From NCBI RefSeq assembly GCF_005239135.1, contig NZ_QKNX01000003.1, positions 186,001 to 250,000 of the forward strand: a stretch of DNA of 64,000 nucleotides, in the 5' to 3' direction. Positions 5,856 through 64,000 of this stretch are shown here, one piece after another. The notes beneath the pieces are model-generated. The model was not told the DNA's origin and searched no databases. It saw only the letters and a list, made by a program, of their open reading frames with translations. The stretch's first letter is position 1. Every line of letters begins with the position of its first letter. This DNA comes from Natronomonas salsuginis (GTDB taxonomy: Archaea; Halobacteriota; Halobacteria; Halobacteriales; Haloarculaceae). A program made the position numbers and the translations under genes.

Positions 5856-7370
5856 ATGAAACTGCCCGAAACGCAACTCGCGCTGCTGGAGGCCGCCAGC
5901 GCGACGGAACAGCGGACAGTTGCACAGTTCGCCGGCGAGCTCGGCGAAGACACGGCCGCGGTCACGCGAGCCGCCTTCGAACTCGAGGAGGCGGGGCTGC
6001 TCGCGGTCGACGAACACGTCGCCGAGGACGTGGCGCTCACCGAGGAGGGCGAGCGCTACCGCGAGGCCGGGCTTCCCGAACTCCGCCTCCGAGCCGCCGC
6101 CGTCGAGGCGGGTGCCGACGCGGAACCGGCCGAGATGGGGCGACTGATCGGCGCGTCCGGCCTCGAGGGACCGGAGGTCGACATCGCGCTGTCGAATCTC
6201 GCCCGGAAGGGGTACGGCTCGATCGAGGGCGGGGCGGTTCAGCTGGGCGCGGATCCCAAATACGACCCCGACGAGGACCCCGAAGCGGAGGCGCTCGACG
6301 ACATCGCCGACGGGAACGCGGGCTATCTCGATTCCGGGATCCTCGACCGGCTCGAATCCCGCGGGCTGATCGAGCGGACCGAGACGACGGTCCGAAGCGT
6401 CACGCTGACAGACGACGGCGTGACGGCGCTCATGGAGGGCGTCGAGGCGACCGAGACCGTCAGCGCCGTCACCCCCGAGCTGTTGACCTCCGGGGAGTGG
6501 CGCGAGGTCGAGTTCACCGAGTACAACGTCGAGGCGGACGCCGAAACTGTCCACAGCGGCAAGGAGCACATCCTCCGACAGACCGCCAACCGCGTCAAGA
6601 ACGTCCTCGTCGGCATGGGCTTTCAGGAGATGGAGGGTCCCCACGCCGACGCCGACTTCTGGATCAACGACTGCCTGTTCATGCCGCAGGACCACCCGGC
6701 GCGGACCCACTGGGACCGGTTTGCCCTCGACGTGCCGCTGATGGACGACCTCCCCGAGGACCTCATGGAGCGCGTCGAGGACGCCCACCGGAACGGCGTC
6801 GGCACCGAGGGCGACGGCTACCACTCCCCGTGGTCCGAGGACTTCGCCCGCGCGGTTGCCCTGCGCGGACACACCACCTCGCTGTCGATGCGATACCTCT
6901 CGGGGCACGCCGTGGGCGAGCTCGAACCGCCTCAGCGGTACTTCAGCGTCGAGAAGGTCTACCGCAACGACACGCTCGATCCGACCCACCTGCTCGAGTT
7001 CTTCCAGATCGAGGGATGGGTGATGGCCGAGGAACTCTCCGTGCGCGATCTGATGGGCACCTTCACGGAGTTCTACGAGCAGTTCGGGATCACCGACCTG
7101 GAGTTCAAACCGCACTACAACCCCTACACGGAGCCGAGCTTCGAGCTGTTCGGCAAACACCCCGAGACGGGCGAGCTGATCGAAATCGGCAACTCAGGTA
7201 TCTTCCGCGAGGAGGTGCTCAGCCCGCTCGGCGTCGACTGTGACGTGATGGCGTGGGGGCTCGCGTTAGAGCGGCTGCTCATGCTCATGTACGGCTTCGA
7301 GGATATCCGCGACGTGCACGGGACGCTGTGTGATCTCGACCTGCTTCGGAACGTGGAGGTGGTGTACTGA
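5856..7370 (+). CDS. pheS: Phenylalanyl-tRNA synthetase alpha subunit
   Basis: A 504-residue archaeal/eukaryotic-type PheRS alpha chain, which with the beta chain charges tRNA-Phe in the cytoplasm. The N-terminal 200 residues hold winged-helix modules for tRNA contact (TLTDDGVTALMEG and similar). The class II catalytic core follows: motif 1 around FQEMEGPHAD, motif 2 around RYFSVEKVYRND, and motif 3 with GLALERLLMLMYGFEDIRD. The TGA stop overlaps the ATG of pheT by one base (TGATG), so the two are translationally coupled. Confidence 0.97.
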   Translation: MKLPETQLALLEAASATEQRTVAQFAGELGEDTAAVTRAAFELEEAGLLAVDEHVAEDVALTEEGERYREAGLPELRLRAAAVEAGADAEPAEMGRLIGASGLEGPEVDIALSNLARKGYGSIEGGAVQLGADPKYDPDEDPEAEALDDIADGNAGYLDSGILDRLESRGLIERTETTVRSVTLTDDGVTALMEGVEATETVSAVTPELLTSGEWREVEFTEYNVEADAETVHSGKEHILRQTANRVKNVLVGMGFQEMEGPHADADFWINDCLFMPQDHPARTHWDRFALDVPLMDDLPEDLMERVEDAHRNGVGTEGDGYHSPWSEDFARAVALRGHTTSLSMRYLSGHAVGELEPPQRYFSVEKVYRNDTLDPTHLLEFFQIEGWVMAEELSVRDLMGTFTEFYEQFGITDLEFKPHYNPYTEPSFELFGKHPETGELIEIGNSGIFREEVLSPLGVDCDVMAWGLALERLLMLMYGFEDIRDVHGTLCDLDLLRNVEVVY

Positions 7371-9193
7371 TGCCTGTCGTCGACGTCGATCCCGACGAGC
7401 TTCGGACGCTGGCGAGCGTTCAGGACAAATCCGACGCGGAGCTCAAAGACGATCTCTTCGCGCTCGGCCTCGAATTCGAAGGCGAGACCGACGATGGCGA
7501 GTTCGAACTGGAGTTCGCTCCCGACCGGCTCGATCGACTCTCCGTCGAGGGGATCGCCCGATCGCTCCGCTACCAGTACGGCCACGACCGCGGCGTCTAC
7601 GTCCCGACGACGAACGACGCCGAGTGGATCATCGAGGTCGACGAATCGGTTCCCGAGGAGCGCCCCTATGTGACGGGAGCGATCGTCCGCGGGCTGGACC
7701 TCGACGAGAGCCGCCTCGAATCGCTCATCCAACTGCAGGAGAAACTCCACGCGACGATGGGGCGCGGCCGCGCCAAGGGCGCGATCGGCGTCCACGACCT
7801 CGCGATGATCAAGGGCCGGGCGGCCAGCGGTGACGGCGACGCGCCCAAGACGATCACCTACCGAGGCGTCGAACCCGACGGCGATCGGTTCGTTCCGCTC
7901 GACGACGACGACGAGCGGACCCCCGCCGAGGTGCTGGAGACGCACCCGACGGGTGACACCTACCGCGATCTCGTCGAGGGGCTGGATCGCTACCCCGCGA
8001 TCTACGACGACATCGGCCTGTTCTCGTTCCCACCGGTGATCAACGGCAAGCGGACCGAGGTCGACGAGGACTCCCGGGATCTGCTCATCGAGATGACCGG
8101 CACCGACCAGTGGACGATCGATCGGATGCTCACCATCGTCTGCTACGCCCTCGACGCCCGCGGCGGGCGAATCGAGGAGGTCGACGTGCGGTACGACGAC
8201 CGCGAGTTGGTCCGCCCGGACCTCTCGACGGAGACGAAGCGCGTCGCCCACGACCGCATCGAGCGGACGCTCGGCATCGACATTCCCGGAAAAGAGGTCG
8301 TCGACCTACTCGAACGGGCGGGCCTCAGCGCCGAGACGACGAGCGACGCGGGCGGAGACGAACCGGAGATCCCCGCAGACGACGTCGAGCTCGAAACGGT
8401 GCCGAGGCGAACGCAAGAGCCCGACACCGCCGCCCGATCGACGGCGACGGCGGACGACGGGTTGATCTACGAGGTCGAAATCCCGCCCTACCGGGTCGAC
8501 GTGCTGCACCCGATGGACATCGTCGACGACGTCGGCCGCGCCTACGGGTTCAACGACCTCGAACCGACGTACCCCGACGTCTCGACCGTGGGCGGCCGCC
8601 ACGAGCGATCGCGGCTCGAGGACGCCGCCCGCGACGCCCTCGTCGGCCTCGGCTTCGAGGACCTGCTGAACTTCTACATGACGAACGAGGCCGCCCTGTT
8701 CGACCGGATGGCTCTCTCGCCAGACGACAACGCGCTCGGGGCGCGCGATCCGCCGGCCATCACCGGCCCCTACAGCGAGGAGTACACCGTCGTGCGGACG
8801 TGGGCGCTCCCCTCGCTCATGATGGTCCTAGAGAACAACACCCACCGGGCGTACCCGCAGGACCTCGCCGAGATCGGTCTCGTCTCGGCGGTCGATCCCG
8901 ACGAGGCGACGGGCGTCGCCGAACACCGATCCGTCGCCGGGGCGCTCGCCCGAACCGACGCCTCCTACGAGGACGCGAAGGCCCGCCTGCAGGCGCTCGC
9001 CCGGGCGTTCGGCAAGACGCTCGAAACGCCGCCAGCCGAGCACCCCTCGTTTATATCCGGCCGGACCGCTGAGATCGTCCTCGACGGCGAGTCGGTGGGC
9101 GTCCTCGGCGAGGTTCACCCGAAGGTGTTGGTCGAACACGATCTGGAACTGCCGGTCGCGGCGTTCGAGTTCCGACTCGACGGACTGCGGTAG
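7370..9193 (+). CDS. pheT: Phenylalanyl-tRNA synthetase beta subunit
   Basis: The 607-residue beta chain of archaeal-type PheRS. It carries the B1 and B3/B4 editing region (GRGRAKGAIGVHDLAMIKG, then FPPVINGKRTEV) and a catalytic-like class II domain (DLLNFYMTNEA, GEVHPKVLVEHDLELPVAAFEF). At about residues 322-362 there is an acidic, proline- and threonine-rich insertion (SDAGGDEPEIPADDVELE) that interrupts the B5 domain; such loops are common in halophiles. Start overlaps the pheS stop. The chain appears complete. Confidence 0.97.
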   Translation: MPVVDVDPDELRTLASVQDKSDAELKDDLFALGLEFEGETDDGEFELEFAPDRLDRLSVEGIARSLRYQYGHDRGVYVPTTNDAEWIIEVDESVPEERPYVTGAIVRGLDLDESRLESLIQLQEKLHATMGRGRAKGAIGVHDLAMIKGRAASGDGDAPKTITYRGVEPDGDRFVPLDDDDERTPAEVLETHPTGDTYRDLVEGLDRYPAIYDDIGLFSFPPVINGKRTEVDEDSRDLLIEMTGTDQWTIDRMLTIVCYALDARGGRIEEVDVRYDDRELVRPDLSTETKRVAHDRIERTLGIDIPGKEVVDLLERAGLSAETTSDAGGDEPEIPADDVELETVPRRTQEPDTAARSTATADDGLIYEVEIPPYRVDVLHPMDIVDDVGRAYGFNDLEPTYPDVSTVGGRHERSRLEDAARDALVGLGFEDLLNFYMTNEAALFDRMALSPDDNALGARDPPAITGPYSEEYTVVRTWALPSLMMVLENNTHRAYPQDLAEIGLVSAVDPDEATGVAEHRSVAGALARTDASYEDAKARLQALARAFGKTLETPPAEHPSFISGRTAEIVLDGESVGVLGEVHPKVLVEHDLELPVAAFEFRLDGLR

Positions 9194-9334
9194 GGGTTTA
9201 TAAGTAGACTGGGCGGTCCGGTTTCGTGTTTATAAGCAATCGGACAGAGCTATTCCGAGATTTACCTGCTAATTCGAGGGATCATCTCGCTCTCATACCA
9301 CCTTTTAAAAGGGTTCGTTACGGACACCCCGACG

Positions 9335-10450
9335 ATGGACAGGGCAGCGATCGACGAGTACATCCAGCGGAGTCAGCAACTCATCGAGGCGTCACCGCAG
9401 ATGGACGAGGAGAACACGAAGGTCAAACTCGTACAGCCGTTTCTCGAACTGCTCGGCTGGGACCTCTACTCGACCGAAGTTGCGCTGGAGTACACGATTC
9501 CGATGGCGTCGGGGAGTACACACGTCGATTACGCCCTGTTGGTCGGCGACTCTCCCGTCGTGTTCGTCGAGGCGAAACCAGTCAGGTCGACGCTCAGCGA
9601 GGGAGAGATCCGTCAGTTGCGGAGCTACATGCGCCAAGAGCTGGACGTGGACTGGGGGATTTTGACCAACGGAAAGTCATTCGAAGTGCTGACGAAGAAC
9701 CGTCAGCAGAACGGCGGCGAGGAGGTGTCGGTCGTGCAGTTCGACCTCGACGACCTCGCCGGAAACCCGAACGTCCTCGAACTGCTGACGAAGGAGTCGA
9801 TACGCTCCGGGAAATCCGACGAGGTGGCCGAACAGGTCGCACAGACGAACCGCGCGATTCGAGATCTCCGGGGGAACGAGGACAGCGTCACGGCGGCGGT
9901 GACCGAAGCGGTCGAAAACGAGGTCGGCGAACTCACGATCGATCTCGAAGAACAGTCGCGCGAATTCACACAGAACCTCGTCGACGTTCTCCGCGAACAA
10001 CGGCAGTTCGTGAGCGAGGAACCGGGAACGGACGATACAAGCCGATCAGAGAGTCAAACAGGAACAACAATAGAGACACCACCGCCAGATACTGAAAAAT
10101 CCACAGGTGGATACATTATACGTTTTTCAGATGGTAAACGGATTCCAGAGAATAGCGATCGGGGACATACGAAACAAAAACGAAACATGGGGCGAGCTGT
10201 TGATTATTTAATAGAGGAACACGGATTGATCGAGCAGATAGAGATACCACATTTTCCTCCGCAGGCTCGAAAGAATTGCTCGATCAACACCGATCCAGTG
10301 CACCCAAACGGGGAAGAAATGAGGATACCGTACGAATTGGTAAATGGATACTACCTCCACACATCACTCAATGTCAGAGGAAAGAAAACTCGTATTCGTG
10401 ATCTCGCGGAGCACGTGGGGCTTTCCGTCGAATTTCTTGGCGAGTGGTAG
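9335..10450 (+). CDS. Orphan HsdR-N-like restriction endonuclease protein
   Basis: A 371-residue protein. Residues about 1-170 resemble the N-terminal nuclease domain of type I restriction HsdR subunits (PD-(D/E)XK fold): NTKVKLVQPFLELLGWD, HVDYALLVGD with the active-site Asp, and VVFVEAKPV with Glu-x-Lys, followed by RQLRSYMRQ and WGILTNGKSFEVL. Residues 170-230 are a coiled coil, then a linker, then a roughly 110-residue C-terminal domain (GGYIIRFSDGK...YELVNGYYLHTSLN...FLGEW) I cannot name. DNA coding for the last third is much richer in A and T than the first part. No helicase, methylase or specificity gene is adjacent. A TATA-like TTTTAAAA at 9303-9310 supports a leaderless start. Confidence 0.75.
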   Translation: MDRAAIDEYIQRSQQLIEASPQMDEENTKVKLVQPFLELLGWDLYSTEVALEYTIPMASGSTHVDYALLVGDSPVVFVEAKPVRSTLSEGEIRQLRSYMRQELDVDWGILTNGKSFEVLTKNRQQNGGEEVSVVQFDLDDLAGNPNVLELLTKESIRSGKSDEVAEQVAQTNRAIRDLRGNEDSVTAAVTEAVENEVGELTIDLEEQSREFTQNLVDVLREQRQFVSEEPGTDDTSRSESQTGTTIETPPPDTEKSTGGYIIRFSDGKRIPENSDRGHTKQKRNMGRAVDYLIEEHGLIEQIEIPHFPPQARKNCSINTDPVHPNGEEMRIPYELVNGYYLHTSLNVRGKKTRIRDLAEHVGLSVEFLGEW

Positions 10451-10503: not shown

Positions 10504-12579
10504 CTACCGCCGCCGCCCGCCGTGGCCCGGATAGTCGCGCTCGAACCGGGTCTCGATCTCCTCGGTCGAGAACTCCAGAATCGTCGGCCGGCCGTGCGGG
10601 CAGGCGTAGGGGTTCTCACAATCGTCAAGTGCGTCGAGTAGCCCCGCGATCGTCCCCTCCCGCAGCGAGCGGTTGCCCTTGATCGAGGGATGACACGCCA
10701 AATCGCCCAACACGTCGTCGACGACCGCTTCGACGGTGCCATCGGGGTCGCCGCCGAGGAACTCCCCGAGCAAATCGCGGGCGATCTCGGGGGCGGTCTC
10801 CCCGACGTGGTCGGCGAGGAACGCGGGGACGGTCGTCACCGCGAGCGTCCGGTCGTCGTCGAGGTGCGTTCTGAATCCGAGCTTCGCGAGCGCTTCCCCA
10901 TACTCCTCGGCGATGGCCGCCTCGCGGGCGGTGACGCCGACGGTCACCGGTTCCGCGAGCGTCTGGGTGGTCACGTCGCCGTCGAACGCCGCCCGCAATC
11001 GCTCGTAGTTCACCCGTTCGTCGGCGGCGTGCTGGTCGATCACGAGGAGGCCGTCGTCGGACTCGGCGACCAGATACGTGTCGTCGAACTGCCCGAGGAC
11101 GTGCAGGGCTGGAAGGCGGTCGAAGCCCGACGGCGTGCCGGTCGTCGACGCGCCGTCGAGGGTTCGCTGCGTGGTCCGAGATGCGTTTCGGGCGGGCGAG
11201 GACCCCGGCTCGTCGCGTCGTGTCCCCGACTGGTCGGGCGCTCGGGGGTCGTCCGATTTCGGGGAGGATTCGACCGCGTCGACAGTGTCGGGCGTCGCGG
11301 CCGCGTCCGTCGTGTCGGGGTCGGACCGGGAGGACAGCGTCGAGGCGGCATCGCCGTCGGCAGTTCGATCGTCCGCATCGATCCGCGTCGAACGGTCGTC
11401 AATCTTCGATTCAGGTGCTGAGTCGACGGGCGACGGGCGATCCGGCTGGGAGGAACGGTCCGGTTTCGTCTCGTCCACCCGGGCTTCATCGGACGAGCGC
11501 GAACCCGCGTCGGGGTTCGAGGGCGACACCTCGGTCTGCTCGGGGGCAGAGCGCCCGCGCGGCGCGCGCGAACGGAGCAATCCGGCTTCCGAGAGCGCCG
11601 ACTCGACCGCGTCGGTGACACCGGCTTTGATCTCGGCTTCCTCGGCGAACAGCACCTCCAGTTTTCGCGGGTGGACGTTCACGTCGACCCCGCCCGGCGG
11701 CAACCGCAAGTCGACGACGGCGAAGGGGTAGCGGTCGGGTGCGAGCTGGCTCCCGTAGGCGTCGACGATCGCCTCGCGGACGGCACCCGCGGTCACGTAC
11801 CGGCCGTCGACGAGCGTCGTCACGTACTCGCGGCCCGCGCGGTTCGTCTCCGGGTGGCTGACGAGCCCCTCGACGCCGGACAGCGGAGCGTCGCCGCCAC
11901 TGGATTCGACGGGGAGCATCGACGAGGCGACTTCGCGGCCGTAGACCGCCATGACGGCGCTTTTCCGGTCGCCGTCGCCCGTCGTCGCGAACGTCTCGCG
12001 ACCGTCGCGGTGCAGCGAGATCGCGACGTCGGGGCGCGCGAGGGCGTAGCCGGTGACGATCCGAGCGACGTGGTCGAACTCCGTTGCCTCGGTCTTGAGA
12101 TACTTCCGCCGCGCCGGAACGGAGCCGAAGAGGTCCGTCACCTCGACGGTCGTCCCCTCGGGACAGCCGGTCGGGCCACACGAGAGGAGGTCGCCGTGCT
12201 CGACGACGAGTTCCGTCCCGCGCGAGCCGCCGCGCGGTTTCGTCTCGATGCGAAGCCGGGCGACCGAACCGATCGCGTGGAGCGCCTCGCCCCGAAAGCC
12301 GAGCGTGCCGATCGAATCGAGGTCGTCGACCGACTGGAGCTTGCTCGTGGTGTGTTCGTCGATCGCGAGTCGGGCGTCGGATTCGGACATGCCGAGGCCG
12401 TTGTCGCTGACGGCGATGCGGTCGGTGCCGCCCGACTCGACCCGTGCGTCGATCCGGGTCGCGTCCGCGTCGAGGGCGTTCTCGACGAGTTCTTTGACCA
12501 CGGAGGCGGGGCGCTCGACGACCTCCCCGGCGGCGATCCGATCGCGCGTCTTCGCGTCGAGTTCCCTGATCTCCGGCAT
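10504..12579 (-). CDS. mutL: DNA mismatch repair protein MutL
   Basis: A 691-residue MutL. The GHKL ATPase is at residues 1-330 (VKELVENALDADAT, DNGLGM, TLGFRGEALHAIGSVA). Residues about 335-475 are a low-complexity acidic linker rich in Ser, Asp and Pro. The C-terminal dimerisation domain has DQHAADERVNYE, matching the endonuclease motif DQHA-x2-E-x4-E, and CPHGRP near the end, so this MutL should nick DNA as in organisms lacking MutH. It follows mutS on the same strand with 63 bases between, forming a mutS-mutL operon. Confidence 0.97.
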   Translation of the reverse strand: MPEIRELDAKTRDRIAAGEVVERPASVVKELVENALDADATRIDARVESGGTDRIAVSDNGLGMSESDARLAIDEHTTSKLQSVDDLDSIGTLGFRGEALHAIGSVARLRIETKPRGGSRGTELVVEHGDLLSCGPTGCPEGTTVEVTDLFGSVPARRKYLKTEATEFDHVARIVTGYALARPDVAISLHRDGRETFATTGDGDRKSAVMAVYGREVASSMLPVESSGGDAPLSGVEGLVSHPETNRAGREYVTTLVDGRYVTAGAVREAIVDAYGSQLAPDRYPFAVVDLRLPPGGVDVNVHPRKLEVLFAEEAEIKAGVTDAVESALSEAGLLRSRAPRGRSAPEQTEVSPSNPDAGSRSSDEARVDETKPDRSSQPDRPSPVDSAPESKIDDRSTRIDADDRTADGDAASTLSSRSDPDTTDAAATPDTVDAVESSPKSDDPRAPDQSGTRRDEPGSSPARNASRTTQRTLDGASTTGTPSGFDRLPALHVLGQFDDTYLVAESDDGLLVIDQHAADERVNYERLRAAFDGDVTTQTLAEPVTVGVTAREAAIAEEYGEALAKLGFRTHLDDDRTLAVTTVPAFLADHVGETAPEIARDLLGEFLGGDPDGTVEAVVDDVLGDLACHPSIKGNRSLREGTIAGLLDALDDCENPYACPHGRPTILEFSTEEIETRFERDYPGHGGRRR

Positions 12580-21138: not shown

Positions 21139-21214
21139 AGCCAAGGGCCGGATTTGAACCGGCGTGTAGCTGCTCTGCAGGCAACCGCGTAAGGCCAGAC
21201 TCTGCCACCTTGGC
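21139..21214 (-). tRNA. tRNA-Cys (GCA)
   Basis: A 76-base tRNA reading on the minus strand. Acceptor stem GCCAAGG pairs with CCTTGGC, the anticodon loop is CTGCAGA (anticodon GCA), and the T arm is CCGGTTCAAATCCGG. CCA is not encoded. It lies 134 bases after the 5S gene, beyond a strong terminator and behind its own TATA-like element. A T-run follows at 21134-21138. Confidence 0.95.
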
Positions 21215-21239
21215 GCGTCTAGGAGTTACGGAGACGCCG

Positions 21240-21246
21240 ATTTAAG
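21240..21246 (-). promoter_or_regulatory. TATA-like element of tRNA-Cys
   Basis: The minus strand reads CTTAAAT about 25-32 bases before the tRNA-Cys 5' end, the spacing expected for initiation a few bases upstream of the mature tRNA. Together with the terminator after 5S it implies the tRNA is transcribed separately from the rRNA operon. Confidence 0.55.
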
Positions 21247-21294
21247 CGTAGCGGTGCAAAGCGACCGCTACGTCGGCGACGACGTCACTCGCCG

Positions 21295-21337
21295 TATAAA
21301 AATACAAAACCCCCACACAGCGGATGCTGTGCAGGGG
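21295..21337 (-). terminator. rRNA operon terminator (hairpin plus T-tract)
   Basis: Just past the 5S gene the minus strand forms a GC-rich hairpin, CCCCTGCACAGC pairing with GCTGTGTGGGG (21310-21337), followed at once by TTTTGTATTTTTATA. This is an intrinsic-type terminator; T-rich tracts are the known archaeal termination signal and the stem is unusually strong. Confidence 0.75.
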
Positions 21338-21348
21338 TTGAATGAGTG

Positions 21349-21470
21349 GCAGGCGGCGAACCAGATTTCCCAGAAGCTCGCGCACTCCAGTACTCGCTGG
21401 GACGCTGGCGGGCTTATCTTCCGTGTTCGGGATGGGTACGGGAGTGGCCCCGCCGCTTTGGCCGCCTTAA
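21349..21470 (-). rRNA. rrf: 5S ribosomal RNA
   Basis: About 122 bases starting TTAAGGCGGCCAAAGCGG and containing CCCGTACCCATCCCGAACAC, the universally conserved loop. The terminal helix is closed by GGCGGC/GCCGCC. The 3' end is placed by length; it could vary by two or three bases. It follows 23S by about 112 bases. Confidence 0.95.
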
Positions 21471-21529
21471 CGCCGGTTCGTGGAGTCGAACCACGATGGT
21501 ATACCGATACCGGTGGTGCTACCGTGCTG

Positions 21530-21579
21530 TACATGCGATCCAGTTTACGCCCGGACCCGCTTCATCGGGCGGAGCAATC
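21530..21579 (-). repeat. 23S processing stem, 3' arm
   Basis: This segment is complementary over about 50 bases, with internal loops, to 24510-24563 on the other side of the 23S gene. Matching blocks include TACATGCGATCCAG and GGACCCGCTTCATCGGG. In haloarchaea such stems hold the bulge-helix-bulge cut by the tRNA splicing endonuclease to release pre-23S. Confidence 0.8.
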
Positions 21580-21582
21580 AAG

Positions 21583-24498
<2,916 letters not shown>

Positions 24499-24509
24499 TA
24501 ATGATTATA

Positions 24510-24563
24510 GATCGCTCATAAACCCGATGAAACGGGTCCAGTGAGCGTCTGGATCGCATGTAC
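24510..24563 (-). repeat. 23S processing stem, 5' arm
   Basis: Partner of 21530-21579: the two arms bring both ends of the 23S gene together. The strongest helices are the outer 14-bp block ending TACATGCGATCCAG and the inner GACCCG/CGGGT region, separated by an unpaired loop that could form the bulge-helix-bulge cleavage site. Confidence 0.8.
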
Positions 24564-24639
24564 ACACGGTTTCATGCACACATCCGTTGACTGCGGACAT
24601 GTGTCGACCCTTCCCACTCGCGCTTGCACGGAGTGGTGC

Positions 24640-24690
24640 ATCGGTTCTGCGTACCCGAATCGTGCCGCGTTCCCCACTTAAGGGACACGG
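24640..24690 (-). promoter_or_regulatory. Internal promoter in the 16S-23S spacer
   Basis: On the minus strand the spacer between tRNA-Ala and 23S contains GTCCCTTAAGTGGGG (CTTAAG box at 24677-24682), which closely resembles the CCCTTAAGT core of the four promoters upstream of 16S. An internal spacer promoter has been described in Halobacterium rRNA operons. Activity here is inferred from the motif. Confidence 0.45.
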
Positions 24691-24710
24691 TTCGACTCGG
24701 GCACGTGAGA

Positions 24711-24782
24711 TGGACCCACTGGGATTCGAACCCAGGGCATCCTCCTTGCAAAGGAGGCACTCTACCACTGAGCTATGGGCCC
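24711..24782 (-). tRNA. tRNA-Ala (TGC)
   Basis: A 72-base tRNA in the 16S-23S spacer. Acceptor stem GGGCCCA/TGGGTCC, D arm AGCTCAGTGGTAGAGT, anticodon TGC in loop TTTGCAA, and T arm CTGGGTTCGAATCCCAG. Its position in the spacer is typical for haloarchaeal and other euryarchaeal rRNA operons, where it is excised during pre-rRNA processing. Confidence 0.97.
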
Positions 24783-24787
24783 TACCA

Positions 24788-24820
24788 TTAGCCTTGACAG
24801 TTCAAAGGTGCTCGGTCGGT
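24788..24820 (-). repeat. 16S processing stem, 3' arm
   Basis: Complementary to 26450-26482 upstream of 16S: blocks TTAGCCTTG, CAGTTC and CTCGGTCGGT pair across the gene with small internal loops. This is the expected pre-16S processing stem carrying a bulge-helix-bulge motif. Confidence 0.8.
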
Positions 24821-24880
24821 CACGCATCGAGGCCGATAGCGCCAAAGGTGGGCTGAGGCGGATGCCTCAGTCCCGATCGT

Positions 24881-26348
<1,468 letters not shown>

Positions 26349-59948: not shown

Positions 59949-60018
59949 CGCGACCGCCTACATGAGGTACGCGATCGCCACGCCACCACGCCGCGACCGC
60001 CTACATGAAGTCCGCGAT
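59949..60018 (-). repeat. 27-bp imperfect direct repeat across the polC stop codon
   Basis: CGCGACCGCCTACATGAGGT at 59949 and CGCGACCGCCTACATGAAGT at 59992, each continuing CGCGAT, so 27 bases are nearly the same 43 bases apart. The second copy contains the polC stop TAG, its final codons and some trailer. Confidence 0.85.
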
Positions 60019-63000
60019 CCCGCTCTGTTTGTTGGTGTCGTCCTCGAACACCGACTCGACGGCGCGGTCGAGGATCTGGAGCCGCTGTTTCGTGTACTCC
60101 CGACAGCCGTACTCCTCGGCGACCTGAATCGCGGTGTCGATGTACTTTTTCACCGACCCCTCGTGTACCGTGAGGTTCACCCGGCCGCCGCACTCCCGGC
60201 AGTCGCCCGTCAACGGCACTCGGCGGAACTTCTCGCCGCAGTCGAGACAGCGCGTCTCCTGGCGCGAGAAGGCCCGGAGGTTGCCGATGATGTCCGGTAG
60301 GAAGTGATACTCGATCACCCGCTCGGCCACGTCCGTCTCGTCGACGGACCGCAGCTTTCTCGACAGCTCCAGCTGGGCGTTCATCTTCTCCATCATGTCG
60401 CCCAGGGTCTTGTACGCCGACAGGTCCGGCCCCGCGGCGATGTTCGTGGTGTCGTGGGTGTGTTCGAAACCGCGGTACTGCTCGTCCGTGCCGAGTGTGT
60501 CCTCGCCGAGCTTGATCAGCTCTTCGACCTCGCCCGGGTCGGCCATCCGCCGGGTCGCCTCGTAGAATTCGCGGGGGTACTCGGAGACGATGTCCATGTT
60601 GTGCGCCTCGTCGTCGATCTCGGCCGGATCGATGCGCGAGGACATGACGAGCGGAGCGTCCATCTTCCCGCCCCGCTGGTCCGGGAGAAACGTCTTGGAA
60701 AAGTTAAGTATCCCGTCCATGAGCAGCATCACGCAATCTTCGTCTCCATCGCACTGCTTTGTCCCCACGTCATTCGCGATTAATGCGTTGGTCTCGGTGA
60801 CGGTAAGACAGTACACGGCATCTAGATCTGCCTGTTCGTACTCGACCGTATCAATGCTCTCAACGAGGACATCGTCTGAACCACCGTCGAAAACGCGTCG
60901 GCTACGAGCCGGGATGTTCTCGACTTGTGTCGATAGGGCGATCTGCTTCCGAGTAAGGTGGAATCCAACGTCGTTGTAAAATTTGACCGTATCCGCTGAA
61001 GAGATCGTCAACACGTAATGGACTGCGGATCTACTCTCGTCATCCTCGTCGTAGTACTCGGGGAAGTTGTTTTTAAGTTGGATCGGGGTTCGCGCATCGA
61101 CCCGTGCTTTAATCCCCAACCGCGTGAGCGCTCCGAGCAGGTCTTCTTTTAATTCTTGACTGACTGTCGTCGCGTTAATTACGAGTCTTCCGTCTTCAAC
61201 GCTGCCGTCCCCGCTGAAGTATCCACTGAGATACGCGCTCAGGAGATCACTATCTCCTTGAAGTATGCACTCCGGAATTCGCTTATTCGCTGCACCGGTC
61301 CCTGCGTTAAGTACATCGTCGAAGAAGGTCCGTAGCAGTCGACCGGATGCGGTAATCTTCGCGTCGTTTTCGACGTACGGTTCGACACCGAACGCCGATT
61401 CGAGCGATTCGAGATAAAACTCTCGGGCTTGCGCTTCCGTCCCGCATATCGTCGTCTGCTGAATCGTCCCTTTAGCGGTTTCTTGTTCCCGTGTAAACCC
61501 TTCGGCGGCATAGTACCCCAAGAGCGTTGCAACTCCTTCGTCTAGTTCGACGGTCCGATCGATCGAAGTTGAATCACCGCGAAGGCCGAGCGAGACAGTC
61601 TCGGGAAGCGTTCCCAGAAGATCACTCACATCATCGAAGATCTCCAGTAACAACGTGACCGGGATCCGCTCTCTGTACAGATAGTTACTGAGCGATTTTT
61701 TTGTCATTCCAAGATACTCAGCAGTGCTTTTCAACGGATAGAATCGACCATCCCAGTCGTTACTGAGCACTTCTTCGAATATATCGTAGAGCTCTGCCTT
61801 CGACATCCGTTCAATCATCAGCCGATCAGTCGGTACTGAATCGAGCTGGAGAAACTCCTCTAACAAATCGAAGGTGGCCGGTTTGGAGTCGATTACATCG
61901 AGATGTCTCGGCGTCACTAAATGATCTTCTTCGGACAACTCCGAGGCATGCTTCCCAACCACTGTTCCCGTACTGGTGTCGTAAACCTGCATCTCGTGAT
62001 CCGGCGTTATGGTTATTTCACGCCCGCTTCGCGTCTCTACTCGGACCATATGTTCCGGGGCCGCGTGTTTGGACACCGCAGCAACCGATTTTTGAACTAA
62101 CTCGCCATCTTCTGTCAGTGAGGGAACCGATACCTCGCCATCCAATTCCTGTATCAGCGTCCCGAAATCATCCGATTCGGGATCCTCGAGTCGCGATTCG
62201 ACCAGCGTCTCGATCCGCCGGTGATGCCAGCCGTCGTCGTCCTCGTACCAGAGTTTCGTCTCTGGATGGAAGCAATTCCGACGTTTCGCGGCGTGAAAGT
62301 ACGGATGAGCGTATCCGACGGCGGCCGACGTAAAACCAATCACTCTCCCGACAACTGCGGCGGAAGTGTGCGGTGCCATCCCGAAGACCAACTCGCCGAC
62401 CAGGTCGTCGCGGTCGTCGAGGTCGTAGTACCGATCGAGTCCGTAGTACTGCTCTAAGAGATCGTCGACGAAGTCCGCCGTGCGGAGCATGTGTTCGGCG
62501 GCCCCATCGGAGAGCACCACGTCCTGCACCCGCAACTCGACCAGCTGCTCCTCGTGGGTCAGCGGCTGACCGTGAATATCCGTCTCGTAGCCCAGCGACT
62601 TGAGCTGGCCGACAGACACGTCCAACTCGGCGGCCCCGACCGACGTGACCGGCAGGTCCGTCATGTCGTAGCGGACGGTGCCGTCCTTGAACGACGAGAC
62701 CCCGTTTTTCGCCCGCAGGATCCCCTTCTCGATCGGCTCGGGAACCTTGTGCTTCGAGGCGAGCCCCTGGACGCCTTTCAGCACGTCGAAGGCGTTCTCG
62801 CGCTCGCCGACACTCGCGAGCGCGGATCGGTACTCCGCGTTCACGTCGATCGTCGTCCGCTGGATGGCGTCGGCCTCGCGCTCGCAGTTCGGACAGACCG
62901 CACGTCCGGACTCGTCCGGTTCGATGTCGATGTCGCAGTTGTGACAGAGGTAGTGTGGCTCGGTGACGGCGTTGCACTCCGGACAGCGCGCGCGGAACGT

Positions 63001-64000
63001 CGAACCCGAACACTCGGGACACCGGCGGCGGCCGACCTGCGCTTCGAACTCGCCGGGGGTGTCCTGCATCGTGTCGGCGTGTTTGGCCGCGTCGGCGACG
63101 TTGCGCTGTGGGCCGCCCGTCTCGCCGATCGGAAACAGCGTGTGAACCGCCGGCGAGAGATCGCGCTTTTCGGACTTCTCGGGTCGCCCCATCCGACAGC
63201 CGATCCGGGTCGGTGCGCGTTCTCTGATCTCGAACGGGGCGACCTCGTTGACCGCCTTGATCGCGCTGTTGCCGTCGTCCCACGCCCGCGCCGCTGCCGA
63301 CAGCTCCGTCCACGCCCGTTCGAGGCCGTCCGTCAGGCCGAGCGATCTCACGAACGGGACCGCGTCGGGGATTGTCAGCGTCTCGTCGCCCTGTCGGTGT
63401 TCGACGAGGAGCACCTCCAGCGCTTCCCGAACCGGGTCGGTGTTCGGCACGACGAGCGTTCGATCGGCGTCCGATCGTGGCGCGTCCAGCGCCGACCCGT
63501 CGGCCTCGGCCCAGTTCCCGTCGCTTACGGCCACCGCGAGCGCTTCGAACCGATCGACGTCGATGTCGTGCCACAGGTAGGTGTATTCGGGGTGCAGCGG
63601 CGCGTCGAACTCCTCGGTCCACCGAAGCGCCTGCTCCGCGTCGGGGTGTTCGAGGTTCACGCGCGGGGCGTCCTCCAGCGCCTGCACGTCCGCGCCGGCG
63701 GCCTCCATGTCCCGCTTCCACCACTCCGGCGCGTACCCTGCCGGGGACAGCGGGTGGTTGTTCTCGACGAACTCGCCGAAGTTCACGAGGTACTCGCCCA
63801 GATCGAGGATCGCCTCGACGCCGTTTCTGATCTCCAGCGCCTCGGCGGGGTCGTCGATCCGGCGAACGTCGCCGTTGGCGAGCCGAACCGTCGGCCCCTC
63901 GATGGAGTCGACCGGGATGACGCCGCCCGCCTTTCCGGGGCGTTCGGTCTTGATCTGTGTGCCGGTCGCGAGAAAGTCGTCGACGAGGTGCATCGTCGCC
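60001..64000 (-). CDS. polC: DNA polymerase D large subunit (DP2), partial, intein-containing
   Basis: The C-terminal 1,332 codons in the window (the frame stays open to the right edge, so about 350 N-terminal residues lie outside). Of these, 507 are an intein. Extein features: zinc clusters CPECSGSTFRARCPEC and CHNCDIDIEPDESGRAVCPNC, the catalytic DGDED at the intein's 3' junction followed by CVMLLMDGILNFS, and the C-terminal zinc motif CLDCGEKFRR...CRECGG. PolD is the main euryarchaeal replicative polymerase. Orientation places it downstream of nothing in view. It ends next to the MutS-like gene. Confidence 0.95.
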   Translation of the reverse strand, partial: ATMHLVDDFLATGTQIKTERPGKAGGVIPVDSIEGPTVRLANGDVRRIDDPAEALEIRNGVEAILDLGEYLVNFGEFVENNHPLSPAGYAPEWWKRDMEAAGADVQALEDAPRVNLEHPDAEQALRWTEEFDAPLHPEYTYLWHDIDVDRFEALAVAVSDGNWAEADGSALDAPRSDADRTLVVPNTDPVREALEVLLVEHRQGDETLTIPDAVPFVRSLGLTDGLERAWTELSAAARAWDDGNSAIKAVNEVAPFEIRERAPTRIGCRMGRPEKSEKRDLSPAVHTLFPIGETGGPQRNVADAAKHADTMQDTPGEFEAQVGRRRCPECSGSTFRARCPECNAVTEPHYLCHNCDIDIEPDESGRAVCPNCEREADAIQRTTIDVNAEYRSALASVGERENAFDVLKGVQGLASKHKVPEPIEKGILRAKNGVSSFKDGTVRYDMTDLPVTSVGAAELDVSVGQLKSLGYETDIHGQPLTHEEQLVELRVQDVVLSDGAAEHMLRTADFVDDLLEQYYGLDRYYDLDDRDDLVGELVFGMAPHTSAAVVGRVIGFTSAAVGYAHPYFHAAKRRNCFHPETKLWYEDDDGWHHRRIETLVESRLEDPESDDFGTLIQELDGEVSVPSLTEDGELVQKSVAAVSKHAAPEHMVRVETRSGREITITPDHEMQVYDTSTGTVVGKHASELSEEDHLVTPRHLDVIDSKPATFDLLEEFLQLDSVPTDRLMIERMSKAELYDIFEEVLSNDWDGRFYPLKSTAEYLGMTKKSLSNYLYRERIPVTLLLEIFDDVSDLLGTLPETVSLGLRGDSTSIDRTVELDEGVATLLGYYAAEGFTREQETAKGTIQQTTICGTEAQAREFYLESLESAFGVEPYVENDAKITASGRLLRTFFDDVLNAGTGAANKRIPECILQGDSDLLSAYLSGYFSGDGSVEDGRLVINATTVSQELKEDLLGALTRLGIKARVDARTPIQLKNNFPEYYDEDDESRSAVHYVLTISSADTVKFYNDVGFHLTRKQIALSTQVENIPARSRRVFDGGSDDVLVESIDTVEYEQADLDAVYCLTVTETNALIANDVGTKQCDGDEDCVMLLMDGILNFSKTFLPDQRGGKMDAPLVMSSRIDPAEIDDEAHNMDIVSEYPREFYEATRRMADPGEVEELIKLGEDTLGTDEQYRGFEHTHDTTNIAAGPDLSAYKTLGDMMEKMNAQLELSRKLRSVDETDVAERVIEYHFLPDIIGNLRAFSRQETRCLDCGEKFRRVPLTGDCRECGGRVNLTVHEGSVKKYIDTAIQVAEEYGCREYTKQRLQILDRAVESVFEDDTNKQSGIADFM
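60754..62274 (-). other. PolC intein with LAGLIDADG homing endonuclease
   Basis: A 507-residue intein between extein residues KRRN and CDGDED. It starts with Cys (CFHPETKLWYED), has the block B motif VRVETRSGREITITPDHE, two LAGLIDADG-type motifs (LLGYYAAEGF and LSAYLSGYFSGDGSV), a helix-turn-helix-like insert, and ends NALIANDVGTKQ before the +1 Cys. The C-terminal residue is Gln, not Asn, as known for the Pyrococcus abyssi Pol II intein. The coding DNA is more AT-rich than the exteins, a sign of horizontal transfer. Confidence 0.93.

Follow-up and report, generated by a model that had tools for sequence, protein, structure and literature searches.

An exchangeable C-terminal domain with a predicted SeqA-like fold on a probably mobile haloarchaeal HSDR_N nuclease

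The gene between pheT and mutL of Natronomonas salsuginis belongs to a modular nuclease family that is widespread in haloarchaea and is no lone oddity. In this study, we show that it is an insertion at this locus and that the C-terminal tails of its family have repeatedly been exchanged at a hinge while the nuclease was kept. Modelling indicates that the unannotated tail carried by this gene, here termed CTD-A, is probably a reader with the fold of SeqA. On balance we favour the view that this single gene encodes a mobile defence nuclease in which an exchangeable reader selects the DNA to be cut. The window, i.e. the whole stretch of DNA analysed, comprises 64,000 nucleotides (contig NZ_QKNX01000003.1, positions 186,001 to 250,000), and all coordinates refer to it unless a relative is named. 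The features are as follows.

7370..9193, + strand: pheT, left border of the insert
9297..9334, + strand: travelling promoter, with TATA-like TTTTAAAA at 9303-9310, 25 nt before the ATG
9335..10450, + strand: whole gene, an ORF of 371 aa (nuclease, helical stalk, hinge and CTD-A)
9425..9727, + strand: HSDR_N PD-(D/E)XK nuclease domain (residues 31-131; Pfam)
9527-9529, 9569-9571, 9575-9577 and 9614-9616, + strand: active-site codons of D65, E79, K81 and Q94, respectively
9752..10009, + strand: predicted helical stalk (residues 140-225; from the model, with a stalk match in a TIR + CTD-A protein)
10010..10108, + strand: predicted disordered hinge and module junction (residues 226-258; pLDDT under 50)
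10109..10447, + strand: CTD-A (residues 259-371), predicted SeqA-like fold, low GC
10361..10384, + strand: putative recognition loop T343-K350 (TSLNVRGK), placed on SeqA T149-K156 (TNTNTGRK)
10504..12579, - strand: mutL, right border of the insert

The nuclease gene and its insertion between pheT and mutL

Residues 31-131 match HSDR_N_2 (PF13588; E 1.4e-9, 38.5 bits against a cut-off of 25), and HSDR_N (PF04313) is matched with E 6.9e-8 (33 bits, cut-off 25.1). D65, E79, K81 and Q94, the residues of the D...ExK + Q motif, are invariant in 11 diverse relatives; judging by this active-site motif, the nuclease domain is intact. The full-length model (pLDDT 81) consists of the nuclease, the stalk, a disordered hinge (about residues 225-258) and a compact tail. 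Its nuclease fold is closest to the DrdV-DNA complex (E 3.5e-5), with a weaker match to HsdR of EcoR124I. An earlier note on this DNA had called the first two thirds of the protein HsdR-N-like. This holds for the first third, which carries HSDR_N, whereas the middle third is predicted to be a helical stalk. The HSDR_N/PD-(D/E)XK domain and its D..ExK + Q motif are common to type I R-M HsdR, DrdV and other type IIG/L enzymes; in contrast to all of these, the window protein has no helicase, methylase or specificity part. A type I system comprises an HsdR with helicase motor, HsdM and HsdS, whereas the present protein ends after CTD-A. With PADLOC, the whole protein gave only weak partial matches to mads_2 and to parts of type IIG nucleases.

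The gene is flanked by DUF5784, pheS and pheT on one side and by mutL, mutS and DUF5789 on the other, i.e. it lies between pheST and mutL as first described. Neither a methylase, a helicase nor a specificity gene is found among the neighbours, in agreement with the earlier note, nor does a defence gene stand beside it. The genome itself revealed no D12/Dam-type methylase at E<=1e-10.

Only two congeners, G132 and G121, have pheT and mutL side by side. In both, a MATE transporter gene of host composition fills the gap. The window DNA can be aligned with theirs until pheT ends, and alignment resumes where mutL ends; the 1.3 kb between are unrelated. The location of the nuclease between pheT and mutL is restricted to this genome. 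The gene is an insertion, and no part of the 1.3-kb insert is native to the pheT-mutL locus. No convincing flanking repeats or target-site duplications were found around the insert. A MATE gene of 64% identity is present on another contig of the same genome, so that replacement, relocation and loss at this site are indistinguishable.

DNA homology to relatives which have different tails and lie at different sites starts at ~9297, ~38 nt before the ATG, and includes the TTTTAAAA box, 25 nt upstream of that codon. The motif ACCA..TTWAAA 5' of the ATG is conserved in most near relatives. From the spacing between promoter and ATG, the transcript is probably leaderless. Because the insert is foreign and the gene's own promoter travels with it, the nuclease is not resident, contrary to what had been proposed; both syntenic congeners carry the MATE gene at this place. 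The description as a stand-alone gene fits well, since the TATA-like promoter travels with the gene and no gene recurs beside its unlinked copies. Horizontal mobility of the gene is the best reading.

Exchange of tails on a conserved nuclease module

Other genomes of the same family contain nuclease modules of 70-90% identity. Tail A (CTD-A) is common to the window gene, L031, L032 and L038. Most near copies carry tail B (CTD-B, 136 aa; L033, L034, L036, L037, L040, L041), and one near copy, L035, carries tail C. The nearest nuclease module of all, that of L004 with 90% identity, bears tail B, and the pairing of the nuclease with CTD-A is found in other genera as well (L031, L032, L042 and more). 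Identity to relatives is high until residue ~220 and at background level after ~240. At the DNA level, homology to the tail-B and tail-C copies ends at 10020-10024, a few bases from a break in base composition at 10018. Tail type changes 16-17 times on the nuclease-module tree, and well-supported branches force 6-7 changes; the exact count is soft, as the tree of 80 rows was made by a quick method and has long branches. The AU test rejects a single tail-A clade among the near relatives (p 0.0017, or 0.0002 when the long row L132 is left out). The earlier suggestion that the last third is a separate recognition-type domain, joined at the composition break, is well matched by these data; the domain is exchangeable, and recognition is its likely job.

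The break was located mechanically as the best GC3 split, at codon 228 (ending at nt 10018). GC3 is 80% in codons 1-228 and 41% in codons 229-371 (z = 7.7). With ~390 kb of the same contig as composition null, this step ranks sixth among 198 gene-sized ORFs; at least one of the higher-ranked steps is an intein and several resemble start-site artefacts. GC content is 68% in the 5-kb flanks, 60% in the nuclease part and 46% in the tail. Median GC3 of host genes is 85%, to which the nuclease part is near but slightly lower. The first part was thus rightly said to match the genome, if a little below it, and the last third to be AT-rich, the break lying ~30 nt upstream of the position 10050 that had been given.

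The window gene shares the GC3 step with L031, L034 and L035, and the step is missing from L032, L036, L045 and L048. It is a trace of exchange and not a fixed property; conservation of both protein and step throughout haloarchaea, which the earlier note had named as the mark of a native gene, was not what we found. It is hardly credible that the gene is native and inherited vertically and that its step is due to chance or to biased amino-acid usage. Comparable GC3 steps do occur in a few ORFs of the contig, and L034 and L035 have steps too, but the step and the end of homology are only a few bases apart, the step varies between members (L032, L045 and L048 being without it), the gene is absent from both syntenic congeners, and the DNA comparison at pheT-mutL already contradicts such a history. 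In the same window, a 1330-aa fragment of the DNA polymerase II large subunit DP2 (60004-63993, - strand) contains an intervening intein (Intein_splicing E 7.5e-15, LAGLIDADG_3 E 3.4e-13), where GC3 drops from 88 to 68%.

Relatives of the nuclease are scattered and patchy (41/146 family genomes), and often broken, by frameshift, stop or IS605-type insertion. One such relative (L039 5752-6471 and 10863-10994, in G044) is disrupted by a stop codon as well as a frameshift; its promoter and initial 44 codons occur once more 4.5 kb off, as a local duplication. In another (L043 5087-7310, in G068), an insertion of ~1.5 kb, which carries an IS605-type OrfB/TnpB gene, splits the nuclease domain. Pfam holds no family for CTD-B or tail C. 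CTD-B has a distant haloarchaeal relative of ~150 aa, a family without Pfam entry (L238-L243, MDLDRFAxDxPxDDAPxDARVCVVATRPDTF...). Eight CTD-B matches, many truncated or with stops, lie on three contigs (C12, C15 and C17) of G319, possibly the remnants of many tails in one genome.

CTD-A as a reusable module and its likeness to SeqA

No family in Pfam or NCBIfam matches the last 136 residues, and the C-terminal domain is as unfamiliar as had been stated. A CTD-A profile recognised 158/391 sampled haloarchaeal genomes at E<=1e-5 (40%, remote forms included), and strong matches are found in 66/391 (about 17%). Most strong matches sit after HSDR_N. The search proposed in the earlier note, for the tail with other N-terminal domains, succeeded. 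CTD-A follows TIR_2 in L075 (E 3e-23), where a match to the N-module profile indicates that the helical stalk is also kept, a full GmrSD in L122 (GmrSD_N 1.5e-36, GmrSD_C 7.7e-28) and a NucS-like domain in L123 (NucS_C 4e-5, just short of the Pfam cut-off). Moreover, it is fused to a ~90-residue domain without Pfam match in L119, L120 and L124 (TYALVIxxxGQxLyxfexpxPWexxEW) and stands alone, with ~121 aa, in L116-L118. Tail C likewise occurs in another context, after a PLD/NgoFVII-like domain. A search of viral contigs with the N module, CTD-A and CTD-B revealed no virus-borne copy.

A second, weaker group of CTD-A matches (E ~1e-10 to 1e-20; mostly family f3) comprises proteins of 400-450 aa, mostly one per genome, with a remote degenerate nuclease-like N part (L111-L115 and about 80 more genomes). 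Its ExK motif is apparently lost in some members, e.g. L112. Judging from these sequences, the group may be a conserved resident paralogue and, because the motif looks lost in some, possibly a resident DNA-binding protein.

SeqA is a reader of hemimethylated GATC. Modelled alone, CTD-A reached a pLDDT of 91 and a pTM of 0.86. Foldseek placed SeqA at ranks 1-4 and 8 (best E 0.1, TM ~0.55). VIA-align superimposed SeqA with Z 8.2-8.7 and rmsd 2.9-3.1 over 97-104 of 115 residues, and among 300 aligned chains only SeqA chains had Z>=2; by the tool's own note, a Z near 8 may reflect a common arrangement, barely above unrelated folds. Profile-profile alignment with six SeqA proteins by hhalign, which uses no structure, put GYYLHTSLNVRGKK on PYWVITNTNTGRKC (within GYYLHTSLNVRGKKTRIRDLAEHVGL against PYWVITNTNTGRKCSMIEHIMQSMQF) at the SeqA recognition loop, with a score of 23.2-23.8. 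Control maxima were 18.7 (60 column shuffles) and 20.6 (150 column shuffles), the reversed profile scored 11.7 and CTD-B against the SeqA profile 11.4. On the whole, kinship with SeqA is weakly backed by sequence: the global CTD-A/SeqA profile alignment ranked only third against 150 shuffles. PF03925 yielded no match to CTD-A in 12 carrier genomes at E<=10, and the E. coli control was found. SeqA was not listed in a profile search of the PDB with CTD-A, and a sequence search of the PDB gave insignificant matches only (viral fusion glycoproteins; a Rhs-family protein, E 0.045). A fold search of BFVD with CTD-A gave nothing significant. An identity of CTD-A with EVE/YTH or RAMA domains was supported by no search.

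N150 and N152, which lie in this SeqA recognition loop, together with R116-R118 contact GATC (PMC6225831). Among 59 CTD-A sequences, the place of N152 is taken by N in 31 and by S in 18 (N or S in 49), that of N150 by S, H or N (N in 9) and that of K156 by K in 53; the place of R118 mostly holds N, K or R. Since the N150 and N152 places are altered, GATC specificity is not predicted for CTD-A. Taken on its model, CTD-A probably has the SeqA fold, and the two domains are probably distant kin with altered contacts. The predicted fold is alike over ~100 residues, and the loop register keeps the equivalents of N152 and K156. In contrast to SeqA (PF03925), CTD-A is archaeal, has no Pfam match, lacks the SeqA-N oligomerisation domain and is fused to nucleases and TIR.

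Possible function and rival readings

In a mobile defence nuclease of this kind, the N-terminal HSDR_N domain would cut DNA. The helical stalk, perhaps dimerising, and the flexible hinge would bear the C-terminal reader, which would choose the DNA to be attacked. According to the model, a SeqA-fold reader would most likely bind the major groove, and its target might be m6A-marked or otherwise distinctive sites, with the invader cut and the host spared. Readers would swap by recombination at the hinge, leaving the cutter in place, and the same reader would join other effectors elsewhere. We infer DNA binding by CTD-A, dependence on m6A or another modification, and an antiviral role; reading of m6A is plausible.

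A type IIG R-M gene lies in 5/20 neighbourhoods of relatives, in three cases within ~20 bp, and there is no conserved partner gene beside the relatives except for shared synteny within one genus. Independent shuffling of effectors and tails, taken together with such neighbours, is typical of defence genes and suggests a defence function. Where a nuclease comes without a methylase, the mark that it reads should be absent from its host. The shortage of Dam-like methylases predicted for CTD-A carriers was not seen; with no correction for kinship, D12 (Dam-like) methylases are commoner in them (37/66) than in other genomes (109/325). Much of this excess is supplied by genus g26, where 18/18 carriers have a D12 gene. 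Outside g26, a strong D12 gene is found in 10/48 carriers, as compared to 49 of at most 345 genomes. A strong D12 methylase is present in G010, a near relative. D12 enzymes need not all methylate GATC. Since D12 genes are not depleted in carriers, strict cutting of G6mATC is one option among several. Mrr and Dam do not anticorrelate in Halobacteria either (PMC6471742).

The haloviral enzyme HHPV4I cuts G6mATC (PMC10101028), and fusions of the winged-helix m6A reader with PD-(D/E)XK, HNH, GIY-YIG and PLD nucleases are known, many of them haloarchaeal (PMC11037411; PMC10101028). Such fusions (DpnI, HHPV4I/HhiV4I, PD-(D/E)XK-wH, PLD-wH) resemble the window protein in that a single chain carries a DNA-mark reader, which recurs across nuclease folds and is common in haloarchaea (PMC11037411, PMC10101028). 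They differ from it in that the reader here is predicted to be SeqA-like, the cutter is HSDR_N and TIR also serves as effector; in the VIA-align match list, only SeqA and no winged helix was found for CTD-A. Mrr of Haloferax volcanii (type IV), also a haloarchaeal nuclease and thought to cut G6mATC DNA (PMC6471742), is set apart by name and literature. EVE/PUA-nuclease fusions are likewise modular readers on many effectors (PMC7641849), but CTD-A had no EVE/PUA match in any search run.

There is a lesser, yet appreciable, likelihood that CTD-A is a SeqA-fold DNA binder for plain sequence or for a mark other than m6A, and the protein not m6A-dependent. Both the partial retention of SeqA contact residues and the frequency of Dam-like methylases in carriers agree with this. 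A methylase-less nuclease cutting short unmodified sites would, however, harm its host, as argued for the winged-helix fusions (PMC11037411), and the own genome has no D12 methylase. Slightly less likely still is that CTD-A senses an invader protein, a nucleotide signal or RNA and thereby switches on the effector joined to it; its resemblance to SeqA would then be a common arrangement of helices and strands. TIR effectors are often activated through ligand binding or by viral proteins, which makes the TIR and GmrSD partners of CTD-A suggestive, and the caveat of VIA-align that a Z of 8-9 barely exceeds unrelated folds points the same way; against it, no fold other than SeqA reached Z>=2, the match spans nearly the whole domain, and the independent profile alignment lands on the recognition loop. 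A housekeeping nuclease of repair or replication, e.g. a MutH-like strand discriminator, comes to mind because mutL and mutS adjoin the gene and because hemimethylated GATC is read by MutH as well as by SeqA. This is quite improbable, as the location at mutL is found in this genome only, the relatives are patchy, often broken and in some cases adjoin type IIG R-M genes, and a Dam-type methylase is missing from the genome.

Extending the favoured reading of a mobile defence nuclease, we tentatively suggest, with rather less confidence, that CTD-A may be the first archaeal SeqA-fold DNA-mark reader and may serve as common sensor in an immune module of haloarchaea, with independent shuffling of sensors (A, B, C) and effectors (HSDR_N, TIR, GmrSD, NucS-like, PLD), often around a constant stalk. 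If so, reading of DNA would trigger NAD-depleting TIRs as well as cutters. We found no paper naming such a domain; subscription literature lay mostly outside the search, and priority is uncertain. As CTD-A is absent from Pfam and NCBIfam and sits on at least three effector types, a function assigned to it would carry over to many unannotated genes. Reading of adenine methylation by CTD-A, if true, would explain how haloarchaea, beyond the action of Mrr, reject viral or plasmid DNA methylated by Dam, and would bring the SeqA fold into archaea and into immunity. Swapping at a defined hinge provides natural chimaeras for the study of specificity.

Elsewhere in the window, an rRNA operon lies at 21139-26348 (- strand), with SSU at 24882-26348, tRNA-Ala at 24711-24782, LSU at 21582-24501, 5S at 21348-21469 and tRNA-Cys at 21139-21214.
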